A DNA stretch of 60,029 nt from an uncultured Gemmatimonadota bacterium (lineage in GTDB: Bacteria; Gemmatimonadota; Gemmatimonadetes; Gemmatimonadales; Gemmatimonadaceae): contig CADEDA010000016.1 of NCBI GenBank assembly GCA_902825965.1, positions 14,607 to 74,635 of the forward strand, read 5' to 3'. The notes under the pieces are model-generated. The model ran no database searches, was not told the origin of the DNA, and worked only from the letters and a program-made list of their open reading frames with translations. A program made the position numbers and the translations under genes. This document shows, piece after piece, positions 2,156 through 51,344 of the stretch. Position 1 is the first letter of the stretch. Every line of letters begins with the position of its first letter.

Positions 2156-3256
2156 ATGCCTCTTCGCGCCATCATCGCAGGCATGAATGCCTTCGCATTC
2201 GATCAGAGTCCGCACGAGTGGCGCGCACTCCAGCGTCGATTACGCGACGACCGTTCTATCGGGCGTCTGCCCTGTTGTGACGCTGAGGTAGTTGCGAAGA
2301 CCAGCAAGCTGGGTACCCAGTTCTTCGCCCATTACCGCAAGCGCGCGTGTGACGCGTCACGCGAGACCGAAACGCACTTGAACGCCAAGCGCGCGGTATA
2401 CGATGGATGCATTGACGCAGGCTGGAGTGCGCTCACCGAAGCTGTAGGTCCGGACAGTGCCTGGCGAGCGGACGTGCTAGCGTCGCGAGAACTGGCCCAG
2501 GTAGCATTCGAGATCCAGTGGAGTCGTCAGTCCGAGGCGACCACTCGCGAGCGGCAGCGTGGGTTTGCTCGACATCAGGTGCGCTGCTGCTGGCTCTTCC
2601 GGCGCCTTCCGTTTGCCGCCGCCGTGGAGCGGGTTCCCGCCTTCAAGCTCATTGAGGTGTCTGGGCAAAGCCTGCCGGTCGTTGACCTCGGAGCGCGCAC
2701 GCACTCGCTCCGCGAGTTTGCACGCTTGATGCTGGAAGAGCGCGTCAAGTTCGCTGTGGCTGTCAGCGTTCGAGTCGAGCCCGTGCGCCTCCGCATGCTG
2801 CGCGACCACTGTCCTCACTGCTCCGCGACGGTACATTTTGCGGACGCTAGTCTGCCACCTCTCGTTTCACTCTGCGGCCTTTCGCTGGCGCAGGTGAAGG
2901 AGTGCGTCGACGTTCAGCGAGTGCACAATGATTGGGGACGCCAGTTGCGGTCGCTCTACGCGGAGGACTTTGAAGACGTTCCGGTCCAGAGCGGCCTGAT
3001 CTCTGCTCTCGTGCGACGATCCCCTCCGGGAGAGACGTTCAAGACTGCGATAGGACGAAGCGGCTTCTGCCCCTCATGCTTGAAGGTCGTTCCCTTCACT
3101 GCGGCGAGCGCTCAACTCCCCGTTACCGCTGAACTACAGGCACCCCTTCAAGCGCCCCAGTGGCCGAAGACGCCGTTTCCGCATTGGTGCGTGGGCGACA
3201 ACGGCACGTACTGCTCGACCGCGGGACTGGATGTCGTGACTCCCCGCTTGACCTAG
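2156..3256 (+). CDS. CoiA-like nuclease-domain protein
   Basis: This 366-residue protein resembles the competence protein CoiA-like family. Near residues 55-80 a stretch HYRKRACD...ETETHLNAK matches the family's His/Lys-rich lead-in. It is followed by the nuclease core: Asp106 in RADVL, then Glu119-Ile-Gln121 in AFEIQWS, where Gln takes the usual Lys place as in CoiA. Next comes a segment containing RHQVRCCWLFR, the family's R...W(l/f)f element. Two later CxxC pairs (CPHC, CPSC) suggest a zinc-bound insert or tail. CoiA proteins act on incoming single-stranded DNA in transformable bacteria, but many distant members sit in mobile or defence regions, as here. The start is open: ATG 2156 lies at the predicted transcription start, and ATG 2183 (MNAFAF) is a good alternative. 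It is monocistronic. Family call moderately sure; role unknown. Confidence 0.7.
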   Translation: MPLRAIIAGMNAFAFDQSPHEWRALQRRLRDDRSIGRLPCCDAEVVAKTSKLGTQFFAHYRKRACDASRETETHLNAKRAVYDGCIDAGWSALTEAVGPDSAWRADVLASRELAQVAFEIQWSRQSEATTRERQRGFARHQVRCCWLFRRLPFAAAVERVPAFKLIEVSGQSLPVVDLGARTHSLREFARLMLEERVKFAVAVSVRVEPVRLRMLRDHCPHCSATVHFADASLPPLVSLCGLSLAQVKECVDVQRVHNDWGRQLRSLYAEDFEDVPVQSGLISALVRRSPPGETFKTAIGRSGFCPSCLKVVPFTAASAQLPVTAELQAPLQAPQWPKTPFPHWCVGDNGTYCSTAGLDVVTPRLT

Positions 3257-4211
3257 CGGAGGTTGGCGCTCATGGCCAGTTTGGCTGGCGGCTTGGAGTT
3301 CGATGAGTCGACCACAGCACAGCCTGATCTTTGGGGTCTCGAGTCATCAACTGCACCGACCGGCTGTGCGTTCGTCACCGCGCTCGGCGGGCGTGAACGT
3401 GGCCGCGAGACGAGCCCGCCGAACAGCACAACGTGCTGTCCGAGGAGCTGGCGGCATCTCTCCCGGTGTCCGACGCGAAGCGGTACACCGGCGCGTGTGT
3501 TGCCAGACGACGTGCTCAGGCCGGCGCGCAGCTTGATGTGGTCGTTCTGAACAGGTCGTCGCGCATGTGGGCGCGCGACGGGGCGTGTGCAACGTGCGTC
3601 GGGTGGCGGTTGCGGGTCGGGCGAGGAGGTGGTGGTGACGTGGCGACGGTTTGCGCAGAGGTTGGCGGTGGAGCGGACGAGCCACCGGCGTGATGGCCGG
3701 ATCGCGTCGAAGAACTCGCACGGCAACGACCCGTTCCCGCCGCGCGATGGTTGCAAGAGTGGTGCTTTCACATCAACTCGAATGGACGGGCGATCGCTAT
3801 GGTGGGAGCACCGGTGACGCTTCCTCCGATGAAGGAGGTGCTCGTGGTGTCGCACCAGGTGTCGCACCAGGTGTTGCGGCAGTCGGCGATCGCGCTGCCG
3901 CGGGTGATTGCGGCGTGTGGAGCGGCGTTGGCGACGTGGAGTGAGCGGCCGAGGATGAGGCGGCGGAGATGTTCGAGACTGGCGTAGACGACTGGACTGG
4001 CCTCGAAGTCGCTACGGGCACCGTTGTAAGTCGGGGGGATTGACCATGCGCACCGGCCCATCGCCCGCTGCACGAGCACCATCAGTGGCCGTTTTTGCCG
4101 ACAGTGCGGTGTGGTGATGGGCTTGCGGCGAACTCGTCCGGGCGGAGAATTGCAGCGACTACCTAGACTGGCAGCGTCCCAACGGTGCTACGCAGGTCAA
4201 GCCAATACACG
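3257..4211. other. Long non-coding or decayed stretch
   Basis: In these 955 bases every frame is short, lacks a convincing start, and shows no domain. A frame at 3433-3693 contains RDGACATC, faintly like the start of an HNH nuclease, but none of the required histidines follow. The stretch also carries a small 12-base tandem repeat. It is probably decayed accessory DNA or the remnant of an insertion beside the integron cassette. Confidence 0.45.
3846..3881 (+). repeat. 12-bp tandem repeat, 3 units
   Basis: GGTGTCGCACCA occurs twice in succession (3846-3857, 3858-3869), followed by a diverged third unit GGTGTTGCGGCA. Too few and too short for a CRISPR; it lies in the gene-free stretch. Confidence 0.7.
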
Positions 4212-5414
4212 TTAGCTGGACGACCACCATTCTCTCCGCCATGAAATGAAGCTGATTACGAGCACCCAACAGTCGGAGATTCGCGGCGCGGTGGGCGCGA
4301 AGTTCGCGATGATTGCGCCCGTCCTCGAGGCGATGCTCCACTCCCTGCCGTTGGACCGAACCGCTCGCCTCGGCGGCGCCGAGAAGATCACCTTGCACGA
4401 CTTGGCGCGAGAGCTCCGGCAAGGGAGCGGCGACGCGGGAATCTGCTTTGAGTACGCAGTGCACGAGGCTATCGCGTCACGAAGTCCACTCATCCATGAA
4501 CTTGCAAGCGATGTGCTCGGCAGGTTCTGCAACATCAAGGCCGAGGCGGCATCGATTCTCTTTGGACCGGAGAAGGACGGACGCATCCCTATCCTTGAGA
4601 GCGTTCAGGACGCGCTTACGGAGGATTCGATCGTCTTCGTGGGTAACCGGGGACGCCCGCCGAAGCTGCGCCGATACATCCCACAGATCGTGAACGCGTT
4701 CCGTCGTGCCGAGGAGAGGAATCGTCTTCCGCGTAGCATCAGTGGCCTCTGGAAGGCAGACCTGTTTCTTGGAAGCGCGGATCAGGACGTCTGGGTCGGA
4801 ACAACAGTGAAGATCAAAGGAAACGCACTAGACGGCGCAAAGGGCCTGCGCGTCGGCATCTACCCGCAGGAGAACGCGCGCGATCGACCGCGCCTCGATA
4901 GCAACTTGAACCTTGTGCGCCTTCCGCTTCCGTACGACGGCGCATTCATGGAGCTGTTTTACAAGGCATTCTTTCTTACGCGAGCCTTTATGAAGGCTGA
5001 CGCAAGCATCCCCCGCGAAGTCGACCTTCCGGACGCGGAGGATCGCATGATCACCAAGGAGCTCGCGAGTCGCCGGGATTTCCCCGTTCTAGAAGTGATT
5101 GAGTCACTCAGCATCATGGCACAGGACGGGTTGCTTGACACCTCGGGGGTACTATCGGTCAAGCCCTCTGCTACGCTGTCGACCGAGCAAGGCTTGCAGA
5201 CACAGGCCGAACTCGACCTCTCAGCGGACTCCGTGTCTCTCACGCCATCGTCTTACATCGCAAAACCCTAGATGGGAGCACCGCCAGCTAACGGCAGTTG
5301 GTGACCGACGGCCGGTCGAGCGAAGCAGGTGGGCCGCCGCGCCTTGTCGTACCTTTCAGTACGGCGCGGCCGCCCACCTGCATTTCATGGAAGCGGCCGC
5401 GGCACAACTTGACG
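4212..5414 (+). mobile_element. Integron-type gene cassette (one gene plus attC)
   Basis: The unit begins at a G/TTAGCTGG core (4211-4219) and ends at the G/TTAGGC core of an attC site (5414-5420). The first bases, CGTTAGCTGG at 4210-4219, are the exact reverse complement of CCAGCTAACG at 5284-5293, the inverse core of the attC. That is what a free circular cassette predicts, since the two halves come from the same attC. One gene fills it, starting 34 bases in and ending 12 bases before CCAGCTAACG, with no room for its own promoter; both are cassette hallmarks. No integron integrase and no second complete attC are visible, so it is either a lone cassette inserted at a secondary site or the edge of a larger array. 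Inference from structure, strongly supported by base pairing. Confidence 0.72.
4246..5271 (+). CDS. Cassette-borne protein of unknown function
   Basis: I do not recognise this 341-residue protein. It is soluble, with no signal peptide or membrane segment. The N-terminal 90 residues are helical (including FEYAVHEAIASRSP). The middle has RRYIPQIVNAFRR, then LWKADLFLG followed after a short loop by DVWVGTTVKIKG. A buried Asp followed by a strand ending in Lys is the outline of a PD-(D/E)XK nuclease, although Thr/Val stands where the family has Glu. The last 50 residues are Ser/Thr-rich and probably disordered. ATG 4246 is chosen because the ATG at 4241 meets a stop after two codons. Being the only gene in an integron cassette, it is very likely an adaptive trait, possibly defence. 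Nuclease assignment is a guess; that the gene is real is fairly sure. Confidence 0.75.
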   Translation: MKLITSTQQSEIRGAVGAKFAMIAPVLEAMLHSLPLDRTARLGGAEKITLHDLARELRQGSGDAGICFEYAVHEAIASRSPLIHELASDVLGRFCNIKAEAASILFGPEKDGRIPILESVQDALTEDSIVFVGNRGRPPKLRRYIPQIVNAFRRAEERNRLPRSISGLWKADLFLGSADQDVWVGTTVKIKGNALDGAKGLRVGIYPQENARDRPRLDSNLNLVRLPLPYDGAFMELFYKAFFLTRAFMKADASIPREVDLPDAEDRMITKELASRRDFPVLEVIESLSIMAQDGLLDTSGVLSVKPSATLSTEQGLQTQAELDLSADSVSLTPSSYIAKP

Positions 5415-5420
5415 TTAGGC
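5286..5420 (+). other. attC recombination site (59-base-element type)
   Basis: The 135-bp site has all attC parts. R'' is AGCTAAC (5286-5292) and R' is GTTAGGC (5414-5420). L'' is GTTGGTG (5297-5303) and L' is CACAAC (5403-5408); these pair fully except for one bulged G in L'', the extrahelical base expected for strand choice. Unpaired spacers GGCA and TTGAC lie between the boxes. The interior is a long imperfect palindrome: GCAGGTGGGC pairs with GCCCACCTGC and GCCGCGCC with GGCGCGGC, closing on a loop near 5369-5375. Length fits the known 57-141 bp range. Confidence 0.75.
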
Positions 5421-5426
5421 TGACCG

Positions 5427-5453
5427 GAGTCAGATGGTCATCGCAACACCTCC
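5427..5453 (+). repeat. IS30-family left inverted repeat
   Basis: Starts GAGTCAG and contains CGCAACACCT; matches the right end as inverse complement at 21 of 27 bases. The first ATG of the transposase frame (5434) lies inside it. Confidence 0.8.
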
Positions 5454-5478
5454 CATCTTTCAGGAGTTGGAGGTGTGC

Positions 5479-6636
5479 ATGGACCCGAGAACGACCACGC
5501 CGCGCGGTTACACCTGGGAACAGCGCGCGCTCCTCTGGAAGTGGCACCGCGAGGGCGTGTCCCGGCGCACGATCGCGCGCCGGCTCGGCAAGCGGCCTGG
5601 CTCGGTGCACGACGTCATCCGGAACGCCGGCGGGATCGCGCCGCAGCCGCGCGCGCGGTCGCCGTATCGCCTCTCGCTCGAGGACCGCGAGCTGATCGCC
5701 CGCGGTCTCGCGCGGGACGAGTCGTTCCGCCAGATCGCGCGCTGGGTCGGCTGCGCGCCGTCGACGATCAGTCGCGAGGTCGCAGCGCACGGCGGGCGGG
5801 CCGGCGATGCCGCGATGCGGGCCGACATCGCGTCGTGGGCGGCGGCGCGCCGCCCCAAGACCGGTCGGCTCGCGCTCCACGGGCCGCTGTGGCGTCGCGT
5901 CGCGCACTGGCTAGGCAAGCAGTGGTCCCCGCGCCAGATTAGCGCGCGACTTCGCGCGGACCATCCGCATCAGCCCGAGTACCACGTGTCGCACGAGACG
6001 ATCTACCGCTCGCTCTACATTCAGTCGCGCAATGTCCTCAAGCGGGAGCTCACGCAGGAGCTCCGGCGTCGACGCCGCGTGCGCGTGGCGCGCACGGCGA
6101 CGCGGTGGGGGCAGGGCCGTGGGCAGATCGTCGACGCGATCCCGATCGCGCAGCGGCCGCCCGAGGTGGCCGATCGTGCCGTGCCCGGCCACTGGGAGGG
6201 TGATCTCATCGCCGACCGCGGCAACAGTCACATCGCGACGCTCGTCGAGCGCACGACGCGCTTCGTGATTCTGGTGAACGTGCCGAGCAAGGAGACGACG
6301 GCCGTGATCCCCGCACTTATCCGCCAGATCACGCGGTTGCCGACGCACCTCAAGCGCTCGCTCACGTGGGACCGCGGCACCGAGCTCGCGCACCATCGCG
6401 TCTTCTCGGTCGCGACCGGCGTGCAGGTCTACTTCTGCGATCCGCAGAGCCCCTGGCAGCGCGGCTCGAACGAGAACACGAACGGCCTGCTCCGGCAGTA
6501 CTTCCCTCGGAGCGCGGACCTCTCCACCTTCACACAACGGCAGCTCGACGCCGTCGCCGACCGCCTCAACGGTCGGCCCCGCGAGACCCTCGGCTGGCGG
6601 ACGCCCGCCGAGATGATTCAGCAGGTGTTGCGTTGA
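5479..6636 (+). CDS. IS30-family transposase
   Basis: This 385-residue DDE transposase moves the surrounding insertion sequence. The N-terminal half has two helix-turn-helix segments: WHREGVSRRTIARRLGKRPG, and SFRQIARWVGCAPSTISREV, the family's DNA-binding signature. The catalytic core shows the IS30 triad: Asp in HWEGDLI, Asp in LTWDRGTE, and Glu in GSNENTNG, followed by LNGRPRETLGW near the end. The start is set at ATG 5479 because GGAGTTGGAGG stands just before it, and the length then equals the usual 380-390 residues; the in-frame ATG at 5434 lies in the inverted repeat with no ribosome site. The frame is intact, so the element may still be active. Confidence 0.92.
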   Translation: MDPRTTTPRGYTWEQRALLWKWHREGVSRRTIARRLGKRPGSVHDVIRNAGGIAPQPRARSPYRLSLEDRELIARGLARDESFRQIARWVGCAPSTISREVAAHGGRAGDAAMRADIASWAAARRPKTGRLALHGPLWRRVAHWLGKQWSPRQISARLRADHPHQPEYHVSHETIYRSLYIQSRNVLKRELTQELRRRRRVRVARTATRWGQGRGQIVDAIPIAQRPPEVADRAVPGHWEGDLIADRGNSHIATLVERTTRFVILVNVPSKETTAVIPALIRQITRLPTHLKRSLTWDRGTELAHHRVFSVATGVQVYFCDPQSPWQRGSNENTNGLLRQYFPRSADLSTFTQRQLDAVADRLNGRPRETLGWRTPAEMIQQVLR

Positions 6637-6647
6637 ATACCTGATTC
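6621..6647 (-). repeat. IS30-family right inverted repeat
   Basis: Inverse complement of the left end with six mismatches; the transposase stop codon lies inside it, as is usual for this family. Confidence 0.8.
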
Positions 6648-6812
6648 TACCCCACCGCCGGCTCTTGAGTACGATCGGAGACATTGTGGGTCTTGCCACG
6701 CCCATCGGCAGCCACGTGAAGCTAGAATTCACCTGCAGCCGGGCTCTCCAACCGCCGCACCGCGAACCCTGCACCTCCTCTTCAGTTCCACACCTGCACC
6801 GCCCCGCCTCCT

Positions 6813-7463
6813 GTGAGCCTTGTCAAGTCCAAACAGCGCGTCGCCGACCACGGGGAGGTTTTCACCCCCGCGTGGATGGTCGAGGCGATGCTCGACTTGG
6901 TCAAGGACGAGTCCGAGCGCATTGACTCGCGCTTTCTCGAGCCTGCCTGCGGGAGCGGCAACTTCCTGGTCCAGGTGCTCCGGCGCAAGCTTGCGGCCGT
7001 GGAGCGCAAGTTCGGAAGGTCCGACTTCGAGCGGCGGCACTATGCCCTGTTCGGGCTGATGTGCATCTACGGCATCGAGCTCTTGGCAGACAACATTGCC
7101 GAGTGCCGCACGAATATGCTGGAGGTTCTGGCCGAGTACTTGGGGCTCGAAGGGTCCGACGACCTGTTCCGTGCCGCGTTTCACGTGCTCTCGGTGAACC
7201 TCGTGCACGGCGATGCGTTGACGATGCGTACGAGCGGTGGCGCGCCCATCAGGTTTGCAGAGTGGGGCTACCTCGGCAAGGGCAAGTTCCAACGGCGCGA
7301 TTTCCGCTTGGACGTTCTCACCCAGTCCTCGGCGTTTAGCGAGGAGGGCTCGTTGTTTGCACATCTGGGCAAACACGAGTTGTTCGTACCGCTCACGACG
7401 TACCCGCCGATGACGGCGAGCGAGTTGGCAGTGATGGGTAACGGGCAGAAGGCGACCGTATGA
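6813..7463 (+). CDS. DNA methylase-like SAM-binding subunit, no catalytic NPPY
   Basis: A 216-residue protein like the front half of an N6-adenine DNA methylase. It begins with SKQRVADHGEVFTP, the lead-in of these enzymes. A perfect SAM-binding motif I follows (FLEPACGSGNFL), then YGIELLADNIAECR and VHGDAL, the element that normally precedes motif IV. There the similarity stops: no (N/D)PPY is present and the protein ends after a short tail. It may be the SAM-binding or scaffolding partner of the next gene's product. GTG start 6813 is supported by the match to the family N-terminus. The stop overlaps the next start as ATGA, so the two are translationally coupled. Methylase relationship sure; role as non-catalytic partner inferred. 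Confidence 0.82.
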   Translation: MSLVKSKQRVADHGEVFTPAWMVEAMLDLVKDESERIDSRFLEPACGSGNFLVQVLRRKLAAVERKFGRSDFERRHYALFGLMCIYGIELLADNIAECRTNMLEVLAEYLGLEGSDDLFRAAFHVLSVNLVHGDALTMRTSGGAPIRFAEWGYLGKGKFQRRDFRLDVLTQSSAFSEEGSLFAHLGKHELFVPLTTYPPMTASELAVMGNGQKATV

Positions 7464-9056
7464 ACGGCAAGGCGACCTTCGAGCTCCGGAACCGCAATCC
7501 GGACATCCTCACCTGCATTGCCAACCTCTCCAACGACGAGGTGTTTACGCCGCCGGAGTTTGCCAACCGGATGCTGGACACGTTGGCCGAGGCGTGGGCG
7601 GCGGACCACAAGGGCGCGGACCTTTGGGCGGACAGCACGGTGCGGTTCCTGGACCCGTGTACCAAGTCGGGCGTGTTCCTGCGCGAGATCACGAGCCGAC
7701 TGACGAAGGGGCTGGCCGTGAAGATGCCGGACCGTCAGGCGTGCGTGAACCACATCCTGACGCAGCAAGTGTTCGGGATCGGGATTACGCAGCTCACGAG
7801 CCTGCTGGCCCGGCGGAGCGTGTATTGCTCGAAGCACGCCAGGGGTATGCATTCGATTGCGAAGGGGTTTGCGAGGGACGAAGGCAACATTTGGTTCGAA
7901 CGCGTCCAACACTCGTGGGAGAGGGACAGGTGCGAGTACTGCGGCGCGAGCAGGAAGACCCTGGACCGAGGCGAGGGGCTCGAGACCCACGCTTACGCGT
8001 TCATCCACACCGACGACGTCAGGTCTCGGGTGGCCGAAATGTTCGGAGGCGCAATGCAGTTCGACGTGATCATCGGGAATCCGCCCTATCAGCTGGATGA
8101 CGGCGGGTTCGGTACGAGTGCGGCGCCCATCTACCAGATGTTCGTACAGCAGGCGCTGGCGCTCGACCCGCGTTACGCCGTCTTCGTGACGCCCTCACGA
8201 TGGATGGCGGGTGGCAAGGGACTCGACAAGTACCGTGAGCGGATGCTTTCTGACAAGCACCTGCGAAAGATCGTGGACTTCCCGAAACTCTACGAAGCCT
8301 TTCCAGGGGTGAAAATTCGCGGTGGCGTCTCCTACTTCCTCTGGGACCGCGACAACCAAGGTCCATGCGAAGTCCAGACCATCTGGGATGGCCGCCCGAC
8401 GGGACCGGTAGTAGCCCGTTACCTGAATACGTACGACATCCTCGTACGACGCAACGAAGCCGTGCCAATTCTGGAGAAGGTGCGGGCGAAGAACGAGCCC
8501 ACTTTGGACGCGCGCGTTTCGAGCAGGAAGCCGTTTGGCCTTGCCACGAACTTCAAGGGCCGGCCGTCCAAGACGGGCGTGCACAAACCCGTGCAGCTCT
8601 TCGAAAACCAACGCACAGGCTGGATCTCACGGAAGGACATCTCCGTCAACCCCGAGTGGATTGACGAGTGGAAAGTACTAATGACCGCCGTGCAAGGAAC
8701 GAGCGCCGCGCTCGAGACCAAGTTCTTGAGCAAGCCCATCATCGCCGAGCCGGGCACGGCGTGCACCGAAACCTACCTCGTGGCAGGCCACTTCGAGGAC
8801 AAGACAGAAGCGGTCAACTACGCGGCGTACCTGCGCACCCGCTTCGTGCGCTTTCTCGTCTCCCTTCGCAAGGCCACGCAACACGCCACTCGTGACGTTT
8901 ACGCCTTCGTTCCAGACCTTTCGCTGAGCCAAGCGTGGACTGACGCCAAGCTCTACAAGCGCTACGGACTCACCAAGGACGAAATCGCCTTCATCGAGTC
9001 GCAGGTCGCCGAGCAGACCGACGCCAACGACGACATCAGCACCGACGACGAGGCCG

Positions 9057-9064
<8 letters not shown>
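7460..9064 (+). CDS. Eco57I-type N6-adenine DNA methylase
   Basis: The modification enzyme of the operon, predicted to methylate adenine in a specific DNA site. This 534-residue protein has NDEVFTPPEFANRMLD, then a variant motif I (FLDPCTKSGVFL) and FGIGITQLTSLLARRSVYCS. A small CEYCGAS element may bind zinc. Then come catalytic motif IV, FDVIIGNPPYQ (near residue 210), FVTPSRWMAGGKGLD, and GGVSYFLW, all of the Eco57I-like methylase family. The C-terminal third is probably the target-recognition region. It overlaps the upstream gene by four bases and the downstream gene by eight. The variant motif I beside a neighbour with a perfect motif I but no NPPY raises the idea of shared labour between the two. 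Confidence 0.88.
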
Positions 9065-11597
<2,533 letters not shown>

Positions 11598-50650: not shown

Positions 50651-50685
50651 ACGCGGGGCGGCGGCCGATGGCCGCCGCCCCGCGT
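50651..50685. terminator. Perfect 16-bp hairpin between convergent genes
   Basis: ACGCGGGGCGGCGGCC pairs with GGCCGCCGCCCCGCGT around a 3-base loop. It lies between the small secreted protein gene and the stop of the FKBP gene, and probably ends transcription from both sides. Confidence 0.7.
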
Positions 50686-51344
50686 CATTGCACCCGATCC
50701 AGCCGTACCAGGAACACCATCACGCTGTTCGCCGGCACCTTGCCCACCGCACGGCTGCCGTACGCGTAGCGCGACGGGACGACGATCTGCCGGGTGCCGC
50801 CACGCTTCATGCCGCGCACCCCGAGGTCCCAACCGCGGATCACCTGCCCCTCGCCCACCTTGAACAGCAGCGGGCGCGCACCGGGTGCGGTACGGTCCAC
50901 CTCCGTGCCGTCCGCGAGGTACGCGATGTAGGTCATGTAGACCTCACGCCCCGGCATCGCGGGCACGCCCGTGCCCTCCTCCACGTCGCGATAGTAGATC
51001 CCCGTCGGCAGCCGCGTCATCGCGAGCAGCACGACGTTGAGGTCCTCGGCGAACTGCGTGCGCTCCACTTCGCCTTCGCGCGTCGCCAGCGCGGGATCCA
51101 CCTCCGCCTCGGCGCGCTCGTCCGGCCGCGCGGCGGGTGTCGTGGACGCACCCGCCGTGGTCGCGCCACCGCAGCCGGTCGCGCCGAGCAGGGAGACAAC
51201 CAGCGAGACGACCAGCGCGCCGACCAGGGTGTCGACCAAGGTGTCGGTCAGGGCGGGGCCGCGCGCGCCGTTCCGTGTGGACGTGCGGCGCGGACGACGC
51301 CCCAGCGCCCGCTGTACGTGGTCCCAACGCAGTCGGAGATGCAT
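50685..51344 (-). CDS. FKBP-type peptidyl-prolyl isomerase lipoprotein
   Basis: A 219-residue exported foldase. A long N-terminal region (1-57) ends in a lipobox LGATGC, so it is probably a periplasmic-facing lipoprotein. The FKBP domain (about 110-217) shows GTGVPAMPGREVYMTYIAYLADGTEVDRT, FKVGEGQVIRGWDLGVRGMKRGG and YAYGSRAVG...NSVMVFLVRLD, the standard order of the family. It helps fold exported proteins by turning prolyl bonds. Its start is not certain because the first 35 codons are Arg-rich and unusual for a signal peptide. Confidence 0.88.
   Translation of the reverse strand: MHLRLRWDHVQRALGRRPRRTSTRNGARGPALTDTLVDTLVGALVVSLVVSLLGATGCGGATTAGASTTPAARPDERAEAEVDPALATREGEVERTQFAEDLNVVLLAMTRLPTGIYYRDVEEGTGVPAMPGREVYMTYIAYLADGTEVDRTAPGARPLLFKVGEGQVIRGWDLGVRGMKRGGTRQIVVPSRYAYGSRAVGKVPANSVMVFLVRLDRVQ

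Follow-up and report, generated by a model that had tools for sequence, protein, structure and literature searches.

How does a single integron cassette come to sit in a stretch of chromosome that encodes no integron integrase? The question is raised by 60,029 nucleotides of DNA from an uncultured Gemmatimonadota bacterium (here called the window), which correspond to C16:14607-74635 of the 4.07-Mb draft genome G000, an assembly of 73 contigs. A first-pass annotation of the letters alone had described a lone cassette with a well-formed attC and no integrase, and had offered a secondary-site insertion or a CALIN as possible origins. The features of the locus are collected in Table 1. Two of them were absent from that annotation, namely the attI copy and the IS30 element that lies about 10 bp beyond the attC.

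Table 1 Features of the window cassette locus, in window coordinates.
Feature	Position	Strand	Details
attI copy, no adjacent intI	4119..4214	+	core CCAATACACGTTA, 4202-4214; exchange at G4211/T4212
Integron gene cassette, integrated, 1203 bp	4212..5414	+	first bases match the R'' region of its own attC; joined exactly at the attI core
Cassette gene, 341 aa	4246..5271	+	family phrog_30306, an annotation without function; PD-(D/E)XK-like nuclease as a guess
attC, 135 bp	5286..5420	+	R'' AGCTAAC at 5286-5292; R' GTTAGGC at 5414-5420; folded form is the bottom strand
Probable start of next cassette, cut by the IS element	5415..5427	+	TTAGGCTGACCGG; resembles cassette starts on C41 and C17
IS30-family element	~5424..6655	+	transposase ORF 5434-6636; NF033563, 265 bits; ends placed by eye from an imperfect inverted repeat

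The window holds a genuine, complete integron cassette. The proposed attC with its R'' and R' boxes is borne out by the folding check that had been suggested for it: the bottom strand reaches -47.8 kcal/mol when folded, where shuffled sequences average -27.8 (z = -7.1) and none of 200 does as well, and in the folded form R'' pairs with R' and L'' with L', as expected of an integron gene cassette. When the window attC is aligned with eight others of this genome, both sides have changed with pairing retained at 19 of 39 consensus pairs. The suggested covariance-model check, run with our own model of nine attCs, gives the window site 138 bits, a score to be read with the site as part of the training set. 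We also see that the reported 10-bp match between the cassette start and the inverse core is exact, CGTTAGCTGG at 4210-4219 being the reverse complement of CCAGCTAACG at 5284-5293 (by reading; a 9-nt run in the junction test), and that a single ORF does fill the unit. The attC is 94% identical to one attC on contig C4. A scan with strict symmetry criteria found no attC, missing the known window site too, and detection was by a relaxed scan and the covariance model in its place. An Rfam search of the window gave no match, and a covariance-model match at window 50653-50689 (18.9 bits, GC 0.84) was dismissed as a GC-rich hairpin.

To the right of the cassette, some 10 bp separate the exchange point from the start of the IS30 element. 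These intervening bases look like a further cassette start, and with the IS30 element adjoining them this points to a distal array that was cut off, its cassettes probably lost at the insertion. A partial copy of the window transposase, 77% identical, lies inside an attC-bearing region of contig C18 (L033 6827-7217), and IS30 elements thus recur in these arrays.

That the cassette seemed to stand alone is an effect of the window. The covariance model detects about 30 attC sites in the genome, on ten contigs (C2, C4, C16, C17, C18, C26, C32, C33, C37 and C41). Mean column identity among seven of the genome's attCs is 80%, a homogeneity typical of a resident chromosomal integron. Decay is seen at several attCs of C2 and C18, from which the GTTA core is gone. 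A further site at C16:13592-13724 (L032; 57.7 bits) lies about 0.9 kb before the window start in the orientation of the window cassette, with a run of N between; it has no GTTA cores, and is counted only as a decayed relic.

The absence of an integrase holds for the window, where tblastn with IntI found neither a match nor an intI relic, but not for the genome, whose single IntI is encoded at C32:1676-2620 (TIGR02249, 412.7 bits against a cut-off of 265). This protein aligns nearly full-length to the structure of Vibrio cholerae IntI4 (2a3v, E 3.5e-80), and in that alignment keeps the catalytic R, K, H-x-x-R, H and Y together with the extra IntI region, with WQWLFPA; judged by these residues, the C32 gene is intact and functional-looking. 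The remark that chromosomal integrons have rarely been noted in this kind of bacterium does not agree with its relatives: IntI is matched strongly (E <= 1e-60) in 59 of 99 related genomes, and Gemmatimonadota are among the phyla with integrons in a published list (PMC8618304). On C32, attI and then cassettes adjoin intI, and gene and array share a strand. The three genomes inspected (L029 1622-2642 on C32, and also L106 and L107) all have intI in the direction of the array, with its 3' end toward attI. The usual integron layout has intI divergent from the array.

Ahead of the window cassette lies sequence homologous to the attI beside this integrase gene. Window 4119-4215 matches the intI-adjacent attI region C32:1201-1297 at 73% identity over 98 bp (E 3e-8), and outside the core, too, the window attI is only 73% identical. 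In a search that allowed up to one mismatch, the 13-bp core had four exact matches in 4.07 Mb and none in a reversed-pattern control. One is beside intI on C32; the other three, in the window on C16 and on C4 and C26, have no intI, and all four head cassettes. The attI regions of C4 and C26 are 84% identical over 225 bp. No attI core was found on the other arrays (C2, C17, C18, C33, C37 and C41), some of which are cut by contig ends and some of whose attCs are decayed. A 12-base core, CAATACACGTTR, was sought in 16 other genomes of the genus and not found in 15 of them; the sixteenth gave one match, ending GTTG, in a genome where the control matched once as well. A search for a sigma-70-like promoter at the window attI gave none; host promoters may not follow that pattern. 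Further upstream, window ~3600-3990 looks by eye like a decayed copy of small genes at L032 10800-11370, 7 kb upstream on C16.

These data fit neither of the usual categories in full. A chromosomal integron has attI adjacent to intI, as is seen at C32:1201-1297, but also a single attI in cis with intI, whereas here there are four attI copies, three of them without intI. The CALIN reading is formally close, as the window locus has an attC and no intI nearby; however, there is one attC only where the usual threshold is two, and the reading overlooks the attI copy, while a CALIN as usually read has no attI of its own. We consider it probable that the cassette is the leading one behind an attI platform with no integrase gene of its own, within a dispersed, multi-attI chromosomal integron on which one IntI acts in trans.

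The same departure from a single attI in cis is seen in two sister species. In G011, which is assembled as a single contig, the genome's own core TAATCCACGTTA occurs three times, at 2334121 (beside intI), 3120531 and 1344638, placing the attI copies 0.8-1.0 Mb apart. The G011 attC matches listed all fall in three clusters, each of which begins at an attI copy in matching orientation. In G004 the core occurs five times on one 3.1-Mb contig; four copies head attC clusters, and behind the fifth lies one cassette, whose attC is truncated, the outer arm being lost. Two small unplaced G004 contigs also carry attCs. Each of these genomes has one IntI at E <= 1e-60, a count confined to matches of at least this strength. 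This common layout suggests one enzyme serving several scattered gene-capture points.

Were the extra attI copies still in use after they were made, or are they debris? Under the latter reading, whole integrons were copied, their intI genes decayed, and the attI-headed cassettes are inert, CALIN-like leftovers. The remains at several copies are consistent with such a history. The C4 copy has the repeat region and 97-bp segment (73%) that are found just upstream of the C32 intI, with no intI between these and attI; the degenerate repeat tract, with units like CGGTCGGCGGCTTGGACAACT, is upstream of both the C32 intI (L029 ~3250-3600) and the intI-less C4 attI (L031 ~6990-7570). The attI of G011 cluster 3 has a 34-bp match (85%) to the intI 3' end, and the G004 attI copies have a motif that by eye resembles it. 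Duplicated integron heads with loss of intI would appear to be the simplest history of the extra platforms. Decay among the C2 and C18 attCs, and the IS30 element in the window platform, also favour inert leftovers.

The junctions and the first cassettes speak for continued use. At all 12 attI copies tested, the sequence that follows the core agrees over 7-10 nt with the reverse complement of the R'' region of the first attC, which indicates that the first detected attC belongs to the first cassette and that every cassette was joined at the core. First cassettes within one genome have no significant nucleotide similarity to each other, and unrelated ones sit behind attI segments that are 84-94% identical. 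In particular, the three intI-less G004 copies are 86-94% identical over 190-257 bp, with no intI in the shared segment, and are followed by unrelated first cassettes. Near-identical attI segments with unrelated first cassettes indicate that cassette turnover went on after the segments were copied and, because intI is missing from the copied segment, we infer cassette exchange in trans at the integrase-less platforms; alternatively, turnover could have taken place before intI disappeared from these loci. Over its final 20 bp, attI is 75-100% identical between copies, including those with flanks at 22-64% in a gapless comparison, and a core kept while its flanks diverge suggests selection on the core. 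With an intact IntI still present in each genome, we regard the inert-leftover explanation as unlikely.

A second alternative is that the resident IntI placed one cassette off target, at an attG-like chromosomal site without attI ancestry; in essence this is the secondary-site insertion first proposed. Such events have been put forward as an origin of CALINs (PMC8618304), and the window cassette is single and far from intI. This is contradicted by the 98-bp homology between the sequence that the cassette joins and the intI-adjacent attI, which largely refutes the idea, and by the exact 13-bp core, present only four times in the genome and heading cassettes at every copy; we hold it to be very improbable. 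An assembly artefact, in which one integron was split and misplaced among draft contigs so as to mimic several attI sites, might be suspected from the draft state of G000, a cassette start common to C4 and C32 near contig ends, and the run of N just ahead of the window, but is scarcely credible given that sequence, flank and first cassette vary among the four attI copies and that the G011 and G004 copies lie far apart or together on single large contigs.

In the favoured multi-attI arrangement, at least four attI sites would be targets in trans of the single IntI encoded on C32. With the attC bottom strand folded, IntI would join it to the core of attI (G^TTA), placing the cassette gene immediately downstream of the platform. 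The additional platforms would derive from duplicated integron heads minus intI, two copies of which seem to retain recognisable remains of the intI neighbourhood. At the window copy, IS30 probably removed the rest of the array, leaving one cassette. For the genus, we lean towards a polycentric integron in which one IntI services three to five dispersed attI platforms, the platform having been duplicated without intI and selected as a trans capture site.

The cargo of the window cassette is less easily placed. Searches of Pfam, NCBIfam and PADLOC gave no match to the protein. Its relatives are found in several phyla, in Pseudomonas phages and on actinobacterial plasmids, and also with phage-like or integrase genes nearby (genes called by eye). 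Two relatives bear attC-like sequence on their 3' side, one from a Burkholderiales MAG with such a site at its end (L022 5985-6096) and one from an Armatimonadetes MAG with it in the 3' flank (L014 ~2405-2540). The gene therefore probably moves as a cassette in other genomes as well, which suggests passage between phyla. An AlphaFold model was obtained with pLDDT 74. Structure and fold searches gave no confident match (Foldseek none at E <= 0.001); Can2, Upx and LmuAB were among the structural matches, with Z only 2.4-2.7. E69, D172 and K189 are invariant. Our guess is a PD-(D/E)XK-like nuclease, perhaps with a role in phage defence. Elsewhere in the window, three consecutive ORFs at 6813-11597 resemble restriction-modification pieces (an N6-methylase-like protein, an Eco57I-like methylase and a ResIII-like helicase), and an ORF at 2156-3256 has a CoiA-like competence nuclease domain.

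An array that lacks intI is commonly taken for debris or for the product of off-target insertion. The system described here resembles the sedentary chromosomal integron of Vibrio cholerae, the superintegron, in its VchIntIA-type IntI, its attI beside intI and its large arrays with a homogeneous attC family. It differs in having several attI-headed arrays at distant loci with one intI, and in the orientation of intI, which points toward attI and runs with the array. The CALINs of Xanthomonas are likewise attC cassettes at loci away from intI in genomes that retain it, and are said to be mobilisable in trans; here, by contrast, clusters are headed by attI copies, whereas attI at CALINs goes unmentioned in the portion of that account available to us (PMC12444791). 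Extra copies of attI sequence in one system are also known from Delta-attI-type cassettes of class 1 and 2 integrons, but there attI fragments replace attC at the cassette 3' end within one array, while here attI lies upstream of separate, distant arrays (PMC12901181). Integrons are described with one attI close to the integrase (PMC9024848), and we found no report in the open-licence literature of several attI-headed arrays served by one IntI.

Overall, as read from these genomes, this is a dispersed, multi-attI chromosomal integron, a variant marked by attI copies without intI in a genome with a single intI. If attI platforms are copied without intI and served in trans, each genome would have several entry points for cassettes, each with different chromosomal surroundings. 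Standard software looks for attI in class 1 integrons only (PMC9024848), and some CALINs in other taxa may for this reason be attI-headed platforms that have gone unrecognised.
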